In this document: one piece after another, positions 458 through 8,869 of the stretch
Layout: the number at the start of each line of letters is the position of its first letter
Position numbering within the stretch: the stretch's first letter is position 1
Source of the DNA: Rubripirellula sp.
GTDB taxonomy: Bacteria > Planctomycetota > Planctomycetia > Pirellulales > Pirellulaceae
Direction of reading: 5' to 3'
Assembly: GCA_022425745.1 (NCBI GenBank)
Contig: JAKMEW010000410.1
Location: 1 to 39,996, forward strand
DNA length: 39,996 nucleotides
The notes under the pieces: generated by a model
Databases searched by the model: none
Seen by the model: the letters and a program-made list of their open reading frames with translations, nothing else
What the model was told of the DNA's origin: nothing
Position numbers and translations under genes: made by a program

Positions 458-1900
458 TCAATTCATCTCTGGAATGCCATCCTCAAGCAAGCCACTTGGC
501 ACACTTGAAGGAACTACCCAGTCAAGGCGAGCCTGCAAATCGGGTGCGGTCAAGCTTTCAAGGAAAGCGACCAATAGCCGAACACGATTGCCTTCTAATG
601 AGTCGTCGTTCATGTCTACTCCTTCGAGCATCCACTCATTCAAGCCTTCGTCGCGAATCACCAAATCACGAAGATCCGGTTGAAACAATTGAACTTCTGG
701 GTCGTAAGAAGTGAGTGACTGCTCTGGGTCAGCGTGGTGCCGAATCACATCTTCCAAACTTGAGAACGCCCCGTTGTGCATCCACGGGCCTGTCTCTGCG
801 ACGTTGCGAAGTGCCGGTGTGCGAAATTTAAAAAGATCGTTACTCGCACCTGTCACGCCAAATCGTCCAAAATCCAAACCACTGACAGGATCTTTTCCGG
901 GACCCAGCTGTGGGACCGCTAGGTTATGGTGCTGCTGATCGGTCAACAACGTCCCTGAGTGACAAGAAACGCAGTTAGCGGAGCCATAAAACAACAACGC
1001 TCCTTTCTTTGCATCATGACTCAATGCATCAGCATCTCCGCCAACGTATCGGTCAAAGGGACTATCATTCATCCCGAAGGCCTCCGTTTCAAACGCAGCA
1101 ATAGCAATTGCTGCATGCTGAAATCCAAGATCCCCTTCAGCAACGTCGGGGAATGCGGCCGCAAACATTTCCCTGTACGTTTCATTCGCTAACAACCGCA
1201 CCATCAACGCATCCCAAATTCCGGTGAAGTCAGAATCATCAATTGCAGCAAGCTCGTTTCCATTTGCAGCATCTTCCATAAGCCCTCGCATTTCGTCTCG
1301 GCTCGTCACAGGGAACATCGCTTGAATCTGCAATGGCGTTGTCAGCTCAGATGGCAATTGGTCACCTGCCGGTGAAACAATCACTCCGTCAGTGGTCGAT
1401 GCTCTTCCGTCCCAAAAAGCCGTATGCCAATGCTCCGATCCTCGATTGAAGATATCGGGTGCATTCCGTGGCACGAAATGTCGCCCTTCGCCACGAACTC
1501 GGAAAACACTGATTGCACCGGGTGTTTCGGTCTCCGTGCCCACACCCAATGCAAGTGCATCGGAGGTGGCAGTGAGGGAATGATGACAGGTTGCACATGC
1601 GGTATCTCGATTACCGCTGAGAATTCGATCAAAGAAGAGAGCTTGCCCGAGGAGAACCTGATTGGAGTCTTGGCTTGGTGTATCGATTGGAGTGACATTG
1701 TTCTCGGAGAGCATTCGACTCAACCGCGAATCAAGATCGTTGGAATTCTGACGCGATGATTGCGACTGCCGTTCAGATTGCCCCTGCCGATAGGCCCGCC
1801 GATTTTCACTATCCCCCGCAAACCCAATCTCGCAGACCAAGATAAAGCAGACCACAAATGCGGCGATTAACTCAACGAAAAAAATACTTCTACAACGCAT
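458..1900 (-). CDS. Exported di-haem cytochrome c peroxidase / MauG-like protein
   Basis: The 480-residue product has a hydrophobic signal segment (about residues 6-25) and two CxxCH haem-binding motifs: CATCH at 102-106 and CVSCH at 310-314. The spacing of about 200 residues and the late FRTPALRNVAETGPWMHNG motif are typical of the CcpA/MauG family. Members reduce hydrogen peroxide with electrons from small cytochromes or oxidise protein side chains in the periplasm; which applies here cannot be read from sequence. The ATG at 1900 was chosen because GGGGAGAA lies just upstream and the signal peptide follows at once. The frame stays open upstream to 2092, but that extension would cover the promoter-like motif at 1962-1977. 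A Gln/Ser/Arg-rich linker (residues 31-60) separates signal peptide and catalytic domain. It is divergent from the gene at 2318. Confidence 0.88.
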   Translation of the reverse strand: MRCRSIFFVELIAAFVVCFILVCEIGFAGDSENRRAYRQGQSERQSQSSRQNSNDLDSRLSRMLSENNVTPIDTPSQDSNQVLLGQALFFDRILSGNRDTACATCHHSLTATSDALALGVGTETETPGAISVFRVRGEGRHFVPRNAPDIFNRGSEHWHTAFWDGRASTTDGVIVSPAGDQLPSELTTPLQIQAMFPVTSRDEMRGLMEDAANGNELAAIDDSDFTGIWDALMVRLLANETYREMFAAAFPDVAEGDLGFQHAAIAIAAFETEAFGMNDSPFDRYVGGDADALSHDAKKGALLFYGSANCVSCHSGTLLTDQQHHNLAVPQLGPGKDPVSGLDFGRFGVTGASNDLFKFRTPALRNVAETGPWMHNGAFSSLEDVIRHHADPEQSLTSYDPEVQLFQPDLRDLVIRDEGLNEWMLEGVDMNDDSLEGNRVRLLVAFLESLTAPDLQARLDWVVPSSVPSGLLEDGIPEMN

Positions 1901-1961
1901 GACACTTCTCCCCGATGTCAGTCCATGTTGCTGTGTACGCTTGACTGGAAACGAGAACGAG

Positions 1962-1977
1962 GCAAAGGGTGTGCCAA
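1962..1977 (-). promoter_or_regulatory. Sigma-54 (-24/-12) promoter candidate for the di-haem peroxidase gene
   Basis: On the minus strand the sequence reads TTGGCACACCCTTTGC. It keeps the invariant GG and GC dinucleotides exactly 10 bases apart, the full TGGCAC box and the TTGC box. Against the consensus YTGGCACG-N4-TTGCW it differs at the G after CAC and at the final W. Predicted transcription would begin about 12 bases past the GC, near 1950, leaving a leader of about 50 bases before the ATG at 1900. This is a match by eye with no expression data. Confidence 0.55.
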
Positions 1978-2112
1978 AGTCGCAGCAATATTTCATGCAG
2001 GTAAGCCATCGGTACATACAACATTTTTTTACCGCATAGATCGGCCAGTGAATTCTCAGAACAAGAACTCTTTGTCTCGCATTCTGTTTCATTCTTGGAC
2101 GCGAGTCTCAAA

Positions 2113-2139
2113 TTGAAACAAGCTAAAAACCTTGTTCAA
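2113..2139. promoter_or_regulatory. Inverted repeat between divergent promoters, enhancer candidate
   Basis: The left arm TTGAAACAAG (2113-2122) and right arm CTTGTTCAA (2131-2139) are complementary over nine pairs with one bulged A, around the 8-base spacer CTAAAAAC. The centre is about 150 bases from the GG of the leftward and 120 bases from that of the rightward sigma-54-like promoter. That is the usual distance for an activator (bacterial enhancer-binding protein) site. It could also be a plain operator or a chance palindrome. Confidence 0.4.
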
Positions 2140-2244
2140 AAGTAGATCTCCGCCTCAAAATTTATTTTCCCCGCCTTCTGATGTTCGCGTGATCGAACAC
2201 AACAAAAACCAGCGACGGGACCGAAGCCACTAAGCAATCAGACC

Positions 2245-2262
2245 TTGGCATGCGTTTTGCAT
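2245..2262 (+). promoter_or_regulatory. Sigma-54 (-24/-12) promoter candidate for the coiled-coil gene and its cluster
   Basis: The sequence TTGGCATGCGTTTTGCAT has GG and GC exactly 10 bases apart and matches the consensus YTGGCACG-N4-TTGCW with a single difference (CATG for CACG). Transcription would start near 2272, giving a leader of about 46 bases before the ATG at 2318. Together with the mirror-image motif at 1962-1977 it suggests joint control of the two divergent units. This is pattern evidence only. Confidence 0.6.
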
Positions 2263-2317: not shown

Positions 2318-2704
2318 ATGCGATCAGAGAAACTTATGTTCAACGGGTTATCCTTCTGCACTCTTTGCCTAGCGGCCTTTGCGATGCAGACTCTTACCCA
2401 TGACGAGGCATCCGCAGTTCCGCAAACAAAAACCGACTCTCGCAACCTTCTGCAACGAGTGGTTGACCTTGAAGACCGACAAGTTCAGAACGATGTCGAC
2501 TTTCACCTGATCGATCAAAGTCTCAATGACCTTGACCTTAGAGTGAATGACAATCAGGGTCGGGTTATCGCACAGAAACGAGCCATCCAGGCCATGCAAG
2601 CCCGCATCAAACAGGCGATGGAATTGATTGAAGTGCAAAGAGCCGACGCCCGTGTTTTGACTCGGGAGGTCGAAAACCTGCGTGCGTCTATAAAGGAACG
2701 CTAG
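2318..2704 (+). CDS. Small exported coiled-coil protein, unknown function
   Basis: The 128-residue product is not one I recognise. A hydrophobic stretch at about residues 8-24 (LMFNGLSFCTLCLAAFAMQT) looks like a signal peptide, with possible cleavage near ASA-VP (about residues 32-33). From about residue 42 to the end the protein is almost entirely helical heptads (LLQRVVDLEDRQVQND, then IQAMQARIKQAMELIEVQRA and VLTREVENLRASIKER), so a long coiled coil is expected. The ATG at 2318 is preceded by AGGA at a spacing of about 8. It is the first gene after the sigma-54-like promoter at 2245-2262 and is followed after about 170 bases by an exported deiminase-like gene. A periplasmic scaffold or oligomerisation factor is a guess; nothing catalytic is visible. 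Confidence 0.72.
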   Translation: MRSEKLMFNGLSFCTLCLAAFAMQTLTHDEASAVPQTKTDSRNLLQRVVDLEDRQVQNDVDFHLIDQSLNDLDLRVNDNQGRVIAQKRAIQAMQARIKQAMELIEVQRADARVLTREVENLRASIKER

Positions 2705-2877
2705 TCTCCGTCGGTCCTTCATCAATTGGCGGGTCTCGTTCGGCCAGAGGCAAGACGAGACTCCGCGAATGAATTTGAGCAACTTCGGCAACACCATGGC
2801 CGAAGCATCCGATTTATTGATTTGCGGTGACTAGTCACTCGATGCACCGCAACGAAACTCATCATGGAAACGCGGAG

Positions 2878-4128
2878 ATGAACTCGCTTTCGAATGGAAA
2901 AATGAAACCAAAATGGATCGTGTTGCTGGTAACGCTATCTGCCAGCCTTTTTCAAATCATCATCGCTGCCTCCCATCCCGCTGTATCCAGCACGCCGAGG
3001 GATGAGCCAACTCCACGGTTAATGCCAGAAAATGGATCCGGCATAAGCGTTGTGGCCTGCAGTTTGACGAGCGCGCGCACATCGTCACTTCGCAACGCCC
3101 AAGTCATTGAGAACATTATCAAAACCCTTCCTTCCAAGTCTCATGTTCTACTATTCGTCAATGATCCGTCGAGCTTCAAAACCAATCACTCGGCGAGGGT
3201 CACGTTTGTCGAGTTACCCGAGGCAAGTCGCATATCAATCTGGCCTCAGGATCCATTTTTGGTACTCCGTTCAAGAGGCGAATCGACGTTACTGGTCCCC
3301 CGCATTTTTGAACGAGGAGACGATTCGAAAATGCCTGAGAAGCTTGCTGCAAAACTCGACCTAAGACTCATCCGCTCCAACCTCGTTTTTGAAGGTGGAA
3401 ACATTGTTTGCGGAGATCACATGGCGATCATCGGCAATGACACAATCTTGCAGAACGTATGTGAGGGGGAGAACGATCGAGAGAAAGTCATCCTAGATTT
3501 TGAAAAGGAACTCGGGGTAGACGTCGCGGTGGTTGGCCAAGGCGTTCAATCCGTCGGACACATCGACCTGATCGTCACCCCGATTGGTGGAAACCGCGTT
3601 GTCGTAGCTGACTCGTTTTGGGGAGCAGAATTGATGATGACCGCGATCCATCAACACTCGACTCAATTAACAAAATTCGAATCGCGATGTGAGCAACAGT
3701 TCTTTGGTGATGCGAATATCAAATCGCTGACAGATGCTGCAGGTGAACGGATCAATCGGCCAACAATGATCGGGGGTGCATACTATGCTATCCGCAATAG
3801 TTTCCTCTTGGCGAAGGAATTGAACCTGATTGCTGATCAACTCAGAGAACAGGGATTTGATGTCACGCGAATGCCCGCGCTCATCCCCCAGATGCGAACC
3901 ACTGAACTTAACTACCCCGTTTTGACCTACAATAACGTTATTCTGGAGACGAGGAACTCTCAATCACTCGTTTACCTACCTCAGTATGGCCTGCCAATAC
4001 TCGATACAGCATGTGCCGCGGAATGGAAGCGATTGGGATTCAGCGTCAAAACCGTTCAGGGTCTTTCCACCAGTGCTATTTATGGTGGATCCCTGAGATG
4101 TTGCACCAAGGTATTACATAGAGACTAA
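2878..4128 (+). CDS. Exported deiminase-like protein (guanidine-modifying / agmatine deiminase superfamily)
   Basis: The 416-residue product has an N-terminal hydrophobic segment (residues 13-31), so it is exported or membrane-anchored. The rest fits the pentein fold of agmatine and peptidyl-arginine deiminases. WPQDPF (122-127) takes the place of the WxRD substrate loop, FEGGN (171-175) supplies the acidic residue, His228 in GHID is the catalytic histidine, and Cys408 or Cys409 in GGSLRCCT near the C-terminus stands where GGGxHC carries the nucleophile. The residue before the cysteine is Arg rather than the usual His, and the WPQD loop differs from the canonical WMRD. Members hydrolyse guanidino groups; the substrate here is unknown. 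ATG 2878 has GGA at spacing 9; in-frame starts at 2827 (GTG), 2842 and 2902 (ATG) are possible. It lies between the coiled-coil gene and a haem protein. Confidence 0.72.
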   Translation: MNSLSNGKMKPKWIVLLVTLSASLFQIIIAASHPAVSSTPRDEPTPRLMPENGSGISVVACSLTSARTSSLRNAQVIENIIKTLPSKSHVLLFVNDPSSFKTNHSARVTFVELPEASRISIWPQDPFLVLRSRGESTLLVPRIFERGDDSKMPEKLAAKLDLRLIRSNLVFEGGNIVCGDHMAIIGNDTILQNVCEGENDREKVILDFEKELGVDVAVVGQGVQSVGHIDLIVTPIGGNRVVVADSFWGAELMMTAIHQHSTQLTKFESRCEQQFFGDANIKSLTDAAGERINRPTMIGGAYYAIRNSFLLAKELNLIADQLREQGFDVTRMPALIPQMRTTELNYPVLTYNNVILETRNSQSLVYLPQYGLPILDTACAAEWKRLGFSVKTVQGLSTSAIYGGSLRCCTKVLHRD

Positions 4129-4231
4129 ACTGTTGCACTGGAACCGTCCGGGGATCATCTCCCCAACATTTCTCCAAGGATCCGTATTTCTCAAGATTAC
4201 AGCATGCCTCCAAGAAGCATTGCAATCGACG

Positions 4232-7200
4232 ATGACACAGAATCCAATTCACGGCACGATCACCCTGCGAATGCCTTTGCTCACCGCAGTCATGATGCTC
4301 CATCTGTGTTTTGGCATGTACTACGATGCTGGACTTGATGCATTTGCTACCTCCCCTCAGTTTGACATCCTGGACAAAACTGATCTGACTCCGCCACAAC
4401 AGATTCAACAGCGACTCGATCAGCATTGTGGCGATTGTCACCGAGGGACTTCTTTTGAAGGTGATTTCAACCTCGATCAACTCACCAGCGGAAACACCGA
4501 GGAGCAACTGCAGACTCTCGCAAAGATGGAAGAGCAGTTACATCTTGCCCTAATGCCTCCTGCCGACTCGCCTCGATTTCCGGAATCGGCACGGGATGAG
4601 GTGATGCAATGGTTGCACCAAAAACTCGACATCCACAACGCTTCAACACTTAACGGTAAGCTCGCACAACCCGAGTACGGCAACTACCTCGATCACCAAA
4701 AACTATTCTCCGGAGAGTTTACCCACCTCAAAGGTTTTACCTACGATCGACGCTGGTTGATTAGCGAGTACATCTTTGACGCAAAAATCAATGAATTACT
4801 CAATCACCGCCCCTTTCAGACCATTGATGGGACACGCCAATACGTCATCGGAGATAACAATCGGCGAGCCCCCATCACCAATCCATTCCTTCTGCCGTCA
4901 AGAATTGGCGTGCGTTATTACGCGAACGAAACACTCAATGCCGGTCACCTGCTAACCATGATGGCCAATGCCAAAGAGATCTCGGCTTACATGGTGGAAC
5001 TTGTAAAACGAGACAAACGCTACCTTCCGGCGATTGATGAATTCATGCGTCAACAGTGGGAGCACCAGTCGACGCTCTCTTCTCGCCGAGAGTTCCTTAC
5101 GAATCATATCGAGCGCGTGCTTCAGGAGATCAGTGGATACGACGAGGGGGATTGGTTACCCATTTTTGAGCCAGTCAACCTCTCGCAACCGAGTGCTGCC
5201 ACCGCCGACAGCGTCAAGAAGGCCGCATTCCACGCGGCCAACCCCGGCATGCAGGAAATGATCCTGATTTTCCACACGATGCAACATGTTCAAAGCTCGA
5301 GTCGATCCGATGATGAACTCATTGAACAATGTGAAAGAAGGTGGTTTAACTTTGGTGACGACGCGAGAAGAATCGAGTCCAGAGTGACTTTCCTCCGGCA
5401 GTATCTGCCCGAGTTTCGAGAACAGATTGAAACTCATCGATACGCGCAGAAGTACAAGCAGCGACCGTACCAACCGCTTCCTGATCCAGAGATGCATGTC
5501 ATTGTTCAAACGATCAAGAAACATCGCAGGAAGGGTGATCATTTCAACGAAATCATCGACGCTTGCATCCTAGATTGGGACAAGGAATTCGAACAGCAAC
5601 GCCAGCAATCCGATCGAATCAGTGAAGGACAAATCACAAAATTAACCGAACAACTATTTGTAAAACTTCACCATCGATTTCCCACGCAAGACGAAGCAAA
5701 GTCTTACACGCCGCTCATTCAAGGTTACCTTGACTCGATGACAAGGATTGATGCCATTGAGCAAGTCATTCAGACCATTATTCTCCGTTCCGAATTTGTC
5801 TATCGACAAGAATTTGGACGGGGAGATTCAGACCAGTGGGGCCGAACAATACTTGACCCTCGCGACGCAAGCCATGCAATTGCCTTCGCCCTGACCGATA
5901 GTGCTCCCGACGAAGAACTGGCTGCCGCGGCAAGCTCGGGGCGGCTTTGGACTCGCGAGGACTACCGCCGAGAGGTCGAACGCATATTAAAAAACCGCAA
6001 TCAGTACTATGTCATCGATGAAGCGGTACAACGACTACAGTTAACGGCCAGCATCACCAATCAGCCAATCCGCAAGCTTCGATTCTTCCGCGAGTTCTTC
6101 GGCTACCCGTCACTGCTGTCCATCTTCAAAGATAACAAACGTTTTGGCGGCCATTACGACAACTCAAAGGGAAGACTGGTCGGTGAAGCGGATCGACTTG
6201 TTGAACACATTCTTCAGAGCGATGAGAACGTCCTCGAAAAGCTACTTGGTTCAGACGCCTACTATGTCTACCACTCTGGTGACAACGAAGCGATGCGAAC
6301 AGCATCCGAGAGAATCAAGACCATCTACGATTATTTTCATCCGCTCAATTGGCAAGATTTCGAGAAAGAAGACTTACTCGATCACAAAGATTTTCTTGCC
6401 GAGGTCAAGATGCGTGGAGTAGACGTCAACAACCTCTCCCCGGGGGGACGCCGCAATCCGATCCGAGAATTCAAAACGGCCATGGAGAGTTTTAGTTTGC
6501 GGTTCGATAAGGGGCAAACCGCCGCTGCGCCTTACGTCTCATTCCCAGCACACGGCCCCTACAATGCATCCACGCGCACAGGACTACAATTAAGATCCCC
6601 AGAGGTTGCGAAGTTCTTCAATATTCATCTCGACAACTGGCACTATCCCAGCGCCCAGCCTGCTCCGGTCAATAATCGGCGTGGCATGCTTTCGCACCCT
6701 GCATGGCTGATCGCCCACGCAAAAAACACAGAGACGGATCCGATCTCGCGAGGAAAATGGATTCGAGAAAAACTTCTAGCGGGGACCGTACCGGATCTGC
6801 CAGTCACCGTCGATGCAGTGATCCCCGAGGATCATCACCGGACTCTTCGCCAACGCCTCGAAGCCAAAACAAGCGAAACAGCGTGTTGGAAGTGCCACCA
6901 AAAGATGAACCCGCTTGGCTTACCATTTGAAGTATTTGATGACTTCGGACGTTTTCGCACGCGAGAATCACTTGAACATCCCGACAACCTTATCAGCAAG
7001 GGACCGGACAAAGCAGCACCGCATGTCGATCTTCGAGATCAATACAAAACGTTACCCATCGACAGCAGCGGTTACTTGGAAGGAACCGGAGACCCTAATC
7101 TTGATGGGCCCGTCGAAGATGCTTTGGATTTAATTGATCGCCTAGGACAATCTGATCGTGTCAGGCAATCGATCATTCGACACGCGTTTCGATATTTCCT

Positions 7201-7375
7201 AGGACGCAATGAACTACTGAGCGACTCCAAAACCCTGATTGACGCGGATCGAGCTTACCAAGATAGCGGAGGCAGCTTCGATGCGGTGATCGTGTCACTG
7301 TTAACTTCCGATTCGTTTATGTTTCGAAAAACCCTTCCCTCAGCCACCGGTAACACGAAGTCAACGCAGCTATAA
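4232..7375 (+). CDS. Planctomycete-type cytochrome with DUF1592/DUF1588/DUF1585 domains
   Basis: This large exported protein has 1047 residues from the chosen ATG. A hydrophobic stretch (about residues 15-30) is followed by a haem motif CGDCH (66-70) inside the planctomycete cytochrome domain that ends in the ALMPPAD word. The middle (about 100-480) is weakly conserved to my eye. From about 480 the DUF1592 pattern is clear (RSEFVYRQEFG, then KLRFFREFFGYP), then DUF1588 with a second haem motif CWKCH (885-889) in the phrase CHQKMNPLGLPFEVFDDFGR, and DUF1585 with FRYFLGRNE near the end. This domain set is common in planctomycetes and has no firmly assigned reaction; haem-based electron transfer is likely. 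The start is uncertain: TTG 4133, ATG 4232 and ATG 4271 are all possible and none has a good ribosome site. The DUF1552 gene follows after 84 bases, the usual partner. Confidence 0.85.
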   Translation: MTQNPIHGTITLRMPLLTAVMMLHLCFGMYYDAGLDAFATSPQFDILDKTDLTPPQQIQQRLDQHCGDCHRGTSFEGDFNLDQLTSGNTEEQLQTLAKMEEQLHLALMPPADSPRFPESARDEVMQWLHQKLDIHNASTLNGKLAQPEYGNYLDHQKLFSGEFTHLKGFTYDRRWLISEYIFDAKINELLNHRPFQTIDGTRQYVIGDNNRRAPITNPFLLPSRIGVRYYANETLNAGHLLTMMANAKEISAYMVELVKRDKRYLPAIDEFMRQQWEHQSTLSSRREFLTNHIERVLQEISGYDEGDWLPIFEPVNLSQPSAATADSVKKAAFHAANPGMQEMILIFHTMQHVQSSSRSDDELIEQCERRWFNFGDDARRIESRVTFLRQYLPEFREQIETHRYAQKYKQRPYQPLPDPEMHVIVQTIKKHRRKGDHFNEIIDACILDWDKEFEQQRQQSDRISEGQITKLTEQLFVKLHHRFPTQDEAKSYTPLIQGYLDSMTRIDAIEQVIQTIILRSEFVYRQEFGRGDSDQWGRTILDPRDASHAIAFALTDSAPDEELAAAASSGRLWTREDYRREVERILKNRNQYYVIDEAVQRLQLTASITNQPIRKLRFFREFFGYPSLLSIFKDNKRFGGHYDNSKGRLVGEADRLVEHILQSDENVLEKLLGSDAYYVYHSGDNEAMRTASERIKTIYDYFHPLNWQDFEKEDLLDHKDFLAEVKMRGVDVNNLSPGGRRNPIREFKTAMESFSLRFDKGQTAAAPYVSFPAHGPYNASTRTGLQLRSPEVAKFFNIHLDNWHYPSAQPAPVNNRRGMLSHPAWLIAHAKNTETDPISRGKWIREKLLAGTVPDLPVTVDAVIPEDHHRTLRQRLEAKTSETACWKCHQKMNPLGLPFEVFDDFGRFRTRESLEHPDNLISKGPDKAAPHVDLRDQYKTLPIDSSGYLEGTGDPNLDGPVEDALDLIDRLGQSDRVRQSIIRHAFRYFLGRNELLSDSKTLIDADRAYQDSGGSFDAVIVSLLTSDSFMFRKTLPSATGNTKSTQL

Positions 7376-7459: not shown

Positions 7460-8869
7460 ATGAATAATCGCAGATCGTTCATCAAAACAGCAGCTTTCGG
7501 ATCGAGTGTATTGAGTGCAGGTCCGATGGGATTCGGTCAACCAAACACAATTGGAATGACACCGTCATTTGATCAAAACTTGCCGTTCCGATTTATTTTC
7601 ATACGCAAGTCGAACGGAATCCGTCCCGGTGAATTAGCACTACCGACCTTCAGTGATCAAGAGAAGTCAAAAGACGATCATAAAGAAGCGTTCGAAGCTG
7701 ACCTTGAAAAACATGAATTACCAAGCTGGCTCAGCGGACTAAAGCCACACAAGGAACACCTTGGAATCCTGCAAGGACTGTCATGCAAAATGAGCGAGAA
7801 TGGGCATTACTCCTATTCCTCGGTCATGGGGGCATTCAAATCGGGACGTAATTCTCTCAGCGGCATCAAGCGAGCCACCGCCGACTTTGAATTAGCGAAA
7901 CTATCTCCATCACCATTTGGCCATGTGGAGCTATCGCTTACGGGCAACTACAGCAGCTTCCGCACTGGCATCGTTCCCGGATACTCGGCGCCAGCGGCAC
8001 ACCAAAGAAATTACTGCTACGCCGATCCCCAGACAGCATTCGACGAATTGTTCAAGTCTGTTGTCGATCCGGCGAGTGTTAATTCGGAGAACCGTATGCT
8101 TCAATTCTTGGAGTCAGAGGAGGCTTATAAGGTATCCGCGATTCAAGGTTATGAACGCCTGAAACTGACCAACCACATCTCTTCGATCGATGCAATTCGT
8201 CAACGCAATCGCGAAGTGGCAGCTCACGCCGAATTAATCCAACGACATTTGCCAGTTCTGAATCCTGTCCATCAAGACGGTGGCATCAATGCATCAACTC
8301 CGGAAAAGCAAGAAGCGATGACCGATATCCTGATCGCTGCGCTCGCAACCCGACTGACCAACGTTGTGACCTATACGATCGACGAGCTATCAACGCCAAT
8401 CCGCGGCTTACCGGGTAACGAGTCTGATCGAATCTCGATTCATGAACTCGGTCACAATGGTGGCTACAGCGGTGTTCCGGCTGAAAAGATCCGTGAAAAA
8501 ATTCGAGTTGGGCATATCAAACAAATCGCAAAAATTATTGAGCAACTAAAGCAGATCCCAGAGGGGACGGGATCCATGTTTGACCGAACCATGATTTTTT
8601 ACTTCCCAGAAAACGGCGAGACCCATCACAGTCACGGCACCGAAGCCCCGTTTATTGTTTTGGCCGGAAATGCCAGCCCGATCAATCTTGCAGGCCGTTA
8701 CCTGCGGTTACCCTACCATGCGACTCCCGAACACAAGACACTAGGCAACTGGTACACGACCCTGCTCAACGCTTTCGGGAATCCTATCTCGCACTACGGC
8801 GACCTCGACCTCGAAATGTCCCGAAAAAAACTAACGCAGATCGGCCCCATACATCAACTACTTACATAA
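7460..8869 (+). CDS. Tat-exported DUF1552 protein
   Basis: The 469-residue product begins MNNRRSFIKTAAFGSSVLSA, a textbook twin-arginine signal, so it is exported folded. The body matches DUF1552: an early RFIFIRKSNGIRPGE segment, the central NGHYSYSSVMGAF stretch, and the late DRTMIFYFPENGETHHSHGTEAPFIVLAGNA stretch that recalls the alkaline-phosphatase/DUF1501-like folds of planctomycetes. No enzymatic role is established for DUF1552 as far as I know. The gene almost always follows a DUF1592-type cytochrome gene and does so here, so the two probably act as a pair in the periplasm. The ATG at 7460 has no recognisable ribosome site, but it places the RR motif correctly. Confidence 0.85.
   Translation: MNNRRSFIKTAAFGSSVLSAGPMGFGQPNTIGMTPSFDQNLPFRFIFIRKSNGIRPGELALPTFSDQEKSKDDHKEAFEADLEKHELPSWLSGLKPHKEHLGILQGLSCKMSENGHYSYSSVMGAFKSGRNSLSGIKRATADFELAKLSPSPFGHVELSLTGNYSSFRTGIVPGYSAPAAHQRNYCYADPQTAFDELFKSVVDPASVNSENRMLQFLESEEAYKVSAIQGYERLKLTNHISSIDAIRQRNREVAAHAELIQRHLPVLNPVHQDGGINASTPEKQEAMTDILIAALATRLTNVVTYTIDELSTPIRGLPGNESDRISIHELGHNGGYSGVPAEKIREKIRVGHIKQIAKIIEQLKQIPEGTGSMFDRTMIFYFPENGETHHSHGTEAPFIVLAGNASPINLAGRYLRLPYHATPEHKTLGNWYTTLLNAFGNPISHYGDLDLEMSRKKLTQIGPIHQLLT

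Follow-up and report, generated by a model that had tools for sequence, protein, structure and literature searches.

Is the gap between the genes for a MauG-like peroxidase and a divergently oriented coiled-coil protein a sigma-54 regulatory region, and if so, through which operator and for the benefit of which of its two neighbours? Sigma-54 (RpoN) promoters with upstream sites for enhancer-binding proteins are known from the NtrC/NifA-type systems; their transcription begins some 12 bases downstream of the -12 box and requires rpoN. In the window, by which we mean the whole stretch of 39,996 nucleotides of Rubripirellula sp. DNA analysed in this work, the gap extends from the ATG at 1900 (minus strand) to the ATG at 2318 (plus strand) and comprises 417 bases, as given in the preliminary description. 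The latter had also placed two outward-facing motifs with GG-N10-GC spacing in the gap, TTGGCACACCCTTTGC (minus, 1962-1977) and TTGGCATGCGTTTTGCAT (plus, 2245-2262), and both are indeed found at these positions and on these strands. No sigma-70-like promoters are listed in the 417-base gap, and a search of positions 1800-2900 for structured RNA yielded no Rfam match. The features relevant here are the following:

458 to 1900, minus strand: di-haem MauG/CCP-like protein, the N-terminus of which resembles a signal peptide (by eye)
1961 to 1977, minus strand: sigma-54 -24/-12 match TTGGCACACCCTTTGCC facing the MauG-like peroxidase; second-best match of the window, kept in the relative G015
2085 to 2101, plus strand: distal operator TGTTTCATTCTTGGACG, an imperfect TGTYTCA-N3-TGARACA palindrome and likely activator site
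2104 to 2120, plus strand: proximal operator AGTCTCAAATTGAAACA; its centre is 19 bp from that of the distal palindrome, and such a pair is present in 23 of 24 homologous promoters
2113 to 2139, no strand assigned: palindrome named in the preliminary description; shares bases with the proximal operator and is less conserved in its right part (2121-2139)
2245 to 2261, plus strand: sigma-54 -24/-12 promoter TTGGCATGCGTTTTGCA of the coiled-coil/deiminase operon (predicted); best match of the window, with an equivalent in 24 of 24 homologous loci
2318 to 2704, plus strand: coiled-coil protein of 128 aa, predicted to be exported or membrane-anchored, without Pfam match
2842 to 4128, plus strand: deiminase-fold protein (PAD_porph, predicted) with a hydrophobic segment at the N-terminus; D137, H240, D242 and C420 invariant
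4133 to 7375, plus strand: PSD4/PSCyt3/PSD2 (DUF1592/1588/1585) protein, next after the deiminase
7460 to 8869, plus strand: DUF1552 protein, next after the PSD4/PSCyt3/PSD2 gene

All sigma-54 scores reported here were obtained with a matrix written by hand. When both strands of the 40 kb window are scanned with it, the plus site (18.1) and the minus site (15.5) take ranks 1 and 2, in agreement with the earlier statement, made from a scan by eye, that the other intergenic regions hold no equally good match; the third-best match (14.9, 5457-5473) falls within a coding region. In 300 first-order Markov simulations, sites scoring at least 15.5 averaged 0.3 per window and sites scoring at least 18 averaged 0.037, and a divergent pair at most 300 bp apart with both members at 15.4 or above was encountered in none of the 300 simulated windows. 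By rule of thumb, the transcript from the plus site is predicted to start at about 2272, that from the minus site at about 1951. The pattern TGGCAYN5TTGCW, which is fitted by the plus site and not by the minus site, the latter being without the final A/T, has ten matches in the genome of 5.06 Mb compared to six for the reversed control. Six of the ten fall within ORFs (minimum length about 145 codons), and four, including the window site, do not. With only ten matches against six, the motif alone proves little and it is conservation that carries the proof. At locus L016 (G000, contig C225), an exact sigma-54 match lies inside an ORF and is followed, after 148 bases, by a pair of ORFs whose translations resemble, in our reading, groES and groEL.

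Matches to the coiled-coil protein occur in 12 of 60 near genomes, its own included, in 24 of 241 Pirellulaceae genomes from five genera (E <= 1.1e-17) and in nine named MAG records, one of which is a Fuerstiella. At a threshold of 1e-3 the number rises from 24 to 27 of 241, the three weak additional matches probably being spurious, and in an even draw of 392 genomes from the phylum the own genome was the only one matched at 1e-8. The promoter set (n = 24) is made up of 23 family loci and the Fuerstiella MAG; G191 was dropped, as it lies at a contig edge and is without upstream DNA. In each of the 24 promoters, GGCA-N6-TTGC is found 52-104 bases before the protein match, with matrix scores between 12.6 and 19.6. 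GGCA and TTGC are invariant throughout, and the longer TGGCA is present in 17. The three weak protein matches served as a negative control and have best sigma-54 scores of 6.2, 6.2 and 3.3. Scores of at least 12 are reached by 25 of 455 ORF upstream windows from the larger fetched loci: 22 belong to the coiled-coil gene (some loci being counted twice), two to the G015 peroxidase (one site counted twice) and one to another gene. When the columns of the motif are masked, clustering at 55% identity separates the 24 promoters into 20 groups, and the conservation of the promoter is therefore not a mere consequence of recent common descent.

Each unit of the operator resembles TGTCTCA-N3-TGAGACA, and the distance between the unit centres is 19 bp in all but one of the 23 promoters with such a pair and 20 bp in the remaining one. 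Relative to the promoter 17-mer, the operator starts at -74 to -78 in 19 promoters, at -86 in one and at -158 to -160 in three. These three are the window, G015 and G004, where the operator is located about 83 bases further out than the usual 76; in the window it sits between the two divergent promoters. The shifts amount to about one and eight helical turns, so that the phase is apparently kept, as far as two shifts can tell. Compared with 480 shuffles, the score of the pair lies above the 95th percentile (17.7) in 23 of the 24 promoters and above the maximum (20.4) in 18, five of the 23 not exceeding the latter. Since the consensus was derived from the same coiled-coil promoters and these five scores stay within the shuffles, weight is carried by position and by genome scans. 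The strict tandem pattern has eight sites in 60 genomes, all eight at the coiled-coil promoter, as opposed to one for the reversed control. With one mismatch allowed, 64 matches were obtained in 47 of 241 Pirellulaceae genomes versus two for the reversed control; among the 64, two pairs overlap on opposite strands and 16 lie at the coiled-coil promoter by coordinates. This looser pattern misses eight of the 24 gene-bearing genomes, including the own genome with its degenerate distal palindrome. A scan of the own genome for single palindromes gave 16 matches compared to two for the control, several of them representing one place on both strands; beyond the window, only two of these loci have a sigma-54 match of at least 12, in each case more than 1 kb away. 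The promoter of the Fuerstiella MAG has an operator score at shuffle level (16.7) and is without operator. In this MAG (L086, titled Fuerstiella), the coiled-coil/deiminase pair with its sigma-54 promoter may have arrived by transfer or be the result of mis-binning.

In the preliminary description, the site of the enhancer-binding protein had been sought in the palindrome at 2113-2139. The arms of this sequence pair only if a one-base gap is admitted, and it is absent from the listed ungapped inverted repeats. Compared with G015, the closest relative, positions 2085-2120 are 94% identical, positions 2121-2139 79% and the gap as a whole 70.5%. The wrong palindrome had thus been singled out: the conserved element is 2085-2120, the right half of which is overlapped by 2113-2139, and the latter was rejected as enhancer site. 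The operator thus belongs to the best conserved parts of the gap; a stretch adjoining the peroxidase start (1895-1924) is conserved between the window and G015 to a similar extent.

The window's own genome (92.8% complete) contains one rpoN match and nine strong enhancer-binding proteins. All nine have reciprocal best hits in G003 and in G018, both of which are without the operon, and the operon-bearing G017 has the same nine activators and no other. In G033 (with operon, 93% complete) there is no reciprocal best hit for C461. For eight of the nine, namely C122, C282, C327, C249, C427, C528, C333 and C454, each of the four gene-bearing relatives compared yields a reciprocal best hit; G011, of which the comparison included only five activator loci, was not used. 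If the activator is shared among the relatives, it must be one of eight core proteins, and we consider it probable on these comparisons that the operon's activator is indeed one of these eight core enhancer-binding proteins. A tblastn search with the nine activators covered the flanks of 11 relatives, which extend to about 17 kb on each side but are short at contig ends (5.4 kb in total for L038, 0.3 kb on one side for L044); none was detected. Within this range, a dedicated activator gene travelling with the operon is not supported, and all nine are present in the operon-lacking G003 and G018. Autoregulation was not seen either, the activator loci (429,398 bases) being free of operator pairs with a score of 20 or more. 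Taken together, the 24 of 24 sites, the single rpoN match, the nine enhancer-binding proteins and the tandem operator lend strong support to the original proposal that the plus-strand operon is under sigma-54 control.

The tandem operator is not confined to the coiled-coil promoter. csrA-like ORFs lie downstream of eight of the 30 operator loci examined (L206, L207, L209-L212, L218 and L221), tandem operator and sigma-54 match preceding the csrA-like genes. An activator that belongs to the core proteins and is present even without the operon fits with csrA-like genes bearing the same operator. One csrA type (G006, G017 and the operon-lacking G003) has a sigma-54 site about 63 bases and an operator-like pair about 250 bases upstream; the pair scores of 20, 21 and 19.7, respectively, correspond to the tail of the shuffles. 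The G018 counterpart is weaker (sigma-54 11.8, pair 17.7), and the best-scoring csrA type in 16 loci has no operator above the shuffle range. For the window's own genome, csrA was rejected as a target, as the operator is missing at the three csrA genes considered. The csrA gene on C173 (G000, locus L264) is preceded by a sigma-54 match, TTGGCACGCAGAATGCG (14.0), that starts 104 bases upstream, and its operator score of 16.1 amounts to none, a combination that suggests a second activator. The csrA genes on C113 and C198 have sigma-54 scores of 3.6 and 8.8, both without operator.

At L224, L225, L229, L230, L231 and L232, and also at the distant L228, a conserved stretch is located about 150 bases after the sigma-54 site. 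It comprises a GC-rich stem and a terminator-like hairpin with a T run and is a candidate for a sigma-54-dependent small RNA. Against a small RNA speaks that GTG-started small frames cross the stretch in some cases and that six of the seven loci have the start of an ORF some 300 bases further on; the stretch could therefore be a leader. L229 and L228 gave no Rfam match; two of 30 base pairs show double changes, and the covariation term is +2.27. Further targets of the operator include csrA-like genes and, perhaps, this small RNA.

How else could these motifs be explained? That all of them are chance matches in an AT-rich gap is favoured by the genome-wide count of exact matches, only ten against six for the reversed pattern. 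Conservation in 24 of 24 promoters across genera nevertheless contradicts chance for the plus promoter, and matches to the operator pattern far outnumber those to its control (64 versus 2), which makes this explanation scarcely credible. It could also be argued that the tandem palindrome binds a repressor or some other regulator instead of a sigma-54 activator. Inverted repeats of such type are typical of repressors as well, and no activator gene was found beside the locus. The pair, however, is located outside the promoter, and its spacing from the -24 box and, apparently, its helical phase are maintained. In addition, a sigma-54 match of at least 11 is present within 420 bases on either side in 25 of the 30 operator loci examined (three of these being the coiled-coil promoter), while the same applies to 209 of 1200 random positions (17%) in the same 30 loci. 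A repressor or other regulator at this place is, in our judgement, improbable.

The side of the peroxidase calls for a separate assessment. The peroxidase is found beside the coiled-coil gene in three of 23 loci, which makes the divergent arrangement appear to be an addition specific to this clade. G015 keeps the minus site as TTGGCACACCTGTTGCG (score 15.2), 60 bases before the ATG; in G004, which likewise has the peroxidase next to the coiled-coil gene, no sigma-54 match in its direction scores higher than 9.1. As the operator shift occurs in G004 as well, where the peroxidase is without a good sigma-54 site, the shift is no evidence for shared use of the operator. That the plus promoter alone functions, with the minus motif a product of chance and the peroxidase transcribed from an undetected promoter, is a possibility to be taken seriously, even if we lean against it. 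It is favoured by the lower score of the minus site (15.5) and its missing final A/T, by the low value in G004, by the rarity of the adjacent peroxidase and by the fact that the minus 17-mer is 82% identical to that of G015, little above the 77% of the flank. It is countered by the retention in G015 of GG, GC, a high score and a similar distance to the ATG inside a gap of 70.5% identity, and by the simulations, 0 of 300 of which produced a divergent pair of such quality. A sigma-54 promoter of the peroxidase is plausible, but its support is thin and comes from the window and one close relative. The co-regulated module including the divergent peroxidase that had originally been suggested is supported only in the window and G015. 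Of the three elements whose conservation in relatives had been put forward as a check, the plus site is retained in 24 of 24 cases and the minus site in one of the two relatives with adjacent peroxidase; the palindrome as named is not the conserved element. The description of the module's products as protein-modifying fits the deiminase fold and the MauG-like protein encoded at 458-1900. For the latter, the nearest NCBIfam model is that of a His-Xaa-Ser system MauG-like protein, with 288.9 bits, below the cut-off of 340; instead of being a peroxidase, it may be related to MauG and modify proteins.

A deiminase-like gene follows the coiled-coil gene in 21 of the 23 loci with fetched flanks. The two exceptions are L044, where the contig ends, and G114, in which no deiminase was seen. 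Strong deiminase matches are present in 24 of 241 genomes (a 25th, in G112, is weak), and 23 genomes share them with the coiled-coil gene. The exceptions are G114, which has the coiled-coil gene alone, and G002, where the deiminase is situated at a contig edge. As judged from sequence, the conserved unit is the promoter together with the coiled-coil protein and the predicted exported deiminase-fold protein. Genes for DUF1592/1588/1585 and DUF1552 proteins 3' of the deiminase were found, among the loci seen, only in the window, G015 and G004. The model of a coiled-coil homologue has a hydrophobic N-terminal helix (2-38) and a long helix (44-124), with a mean pLDDT of 80.5 and a pTM of 0.38.

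For the deiminase, 19 of 20 members match PF04371 above the cut-off, and D137, H240, D242 and C420, presumably the catalytic Asp, His, Asp and Cys, are invariant across the 20 aligned members. A hydrophobic stretch opens 19 members (by eye), the truncated L086 having been left out. A search for solved relatives by sequence profile found none at 0.01. The structural model (mean pLDDT 73.4) retrieved 1xkn as best Foldseek match (E 1.9e-13, TM 0.51 by query), and the predicted fold corresponds to 1xkn, 6b10 and PPAD 4yt9 with TM values of about 0.5 at 11-15% identity. Family profile and predicted structure assign the protein to the guanidine-modifying fold and the PAD_porph (deiminase) family. 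With the PAD_porph proteins, i.e. the Porphyromonas peptidylarginine deiminase and the agmatine deiminases, it shares PF04371 and the Asp/His/Asp/Cys positions invariant here; it differs from them by its N-terminal hydrophobic segment, its coiled-coil partner protein and the sequence WPQDPF in place of the family motif W.RD.GP.

Promoter, operator and gene pair are conserved in sequence, and rpoN and activators are present in the genome. The full explanation, which we regard as very probable, is that the gap constitutes a sigma-54 regulatory region whose tandem operator switches on the coiled-coil/deiminase operon. We infer the following course of binding and activation. RNA polymerase with sigma-54 would bind the -24/-12 site at 2245-2261 and wait there, until an NtrC-type activator (enhancer-binding protein), probably as two dimers, occupies the tandem palindromes (2085-2101 and 2104-2120), brings the DNA into a loop and opens the promoter using ATP. 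In this way the coiled-coil protein and the deiminase-fold enzyme, both exported, would be switched on, with read-through into the DUF1592/1588 and DUF1552 genes being probable in the window's clade. In the window and G015, the operator could also serve the peroxidase promoter at 1961-1977.

The region shares with NtrC/NifA-type systems a GG-N10-GC core near TGGCACN5TTGCW, paired upstream palindromes and a genome containing rpoN and activators. In contrast to these systems, the operator reads TGTYTCA-N3-TGARACA and the operon is without a link to sigma-54 in the literature searched. Sigma-54 promoters of csrA have been put forward for the related planctomycete Pirellula sp. strain 1 (Studholme and Dixon, 2004, as cited in the accessible part of PMC12316311), and some csrA genes studied here likewise possess them, part of these with the same operator as the coiled-coil genes. 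The same in silico sigma-54 analysis is also cited in the accessible part of PMC2754498; in these parts of the two papers, the coiled-coil/deiminase operon and its operator are unmentioned. In a literature search with subscription papers mostly outside its coverage, we found no description of this operon and operator, no paper on RpoN in Rubripirellula and none joining either CsrA and sigma-54 or peptidylarginine deiminase with Planctomycetes. A query with the operator half-sites returned only unrelated papers among the best 10 of 236. The regulatory machinery is of a known kind; the target operon and the operator appear to be new.

A more far-reaching picture, which we offer tentatively and regard as doubtful in its entirety, is that of a sigma-54 'envelope deimination' module in Pirellulaceae: an activator also controlling csrA and, in one genus, a sigma-54-dependent small RNA would induce both a coiled-coil protein anchored in the membrane and an exported arginine deiminase of its own, and this enzyme would modify the coiled-coil or another surface protein in a lifestyle switch. 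Gene regulation in planctomycetes is little explored, and the locus offers a specific Pirellulaceae regulon with a defined promoter, an operator, a two-gene target and the sharing of this operator with csrA-like genes.
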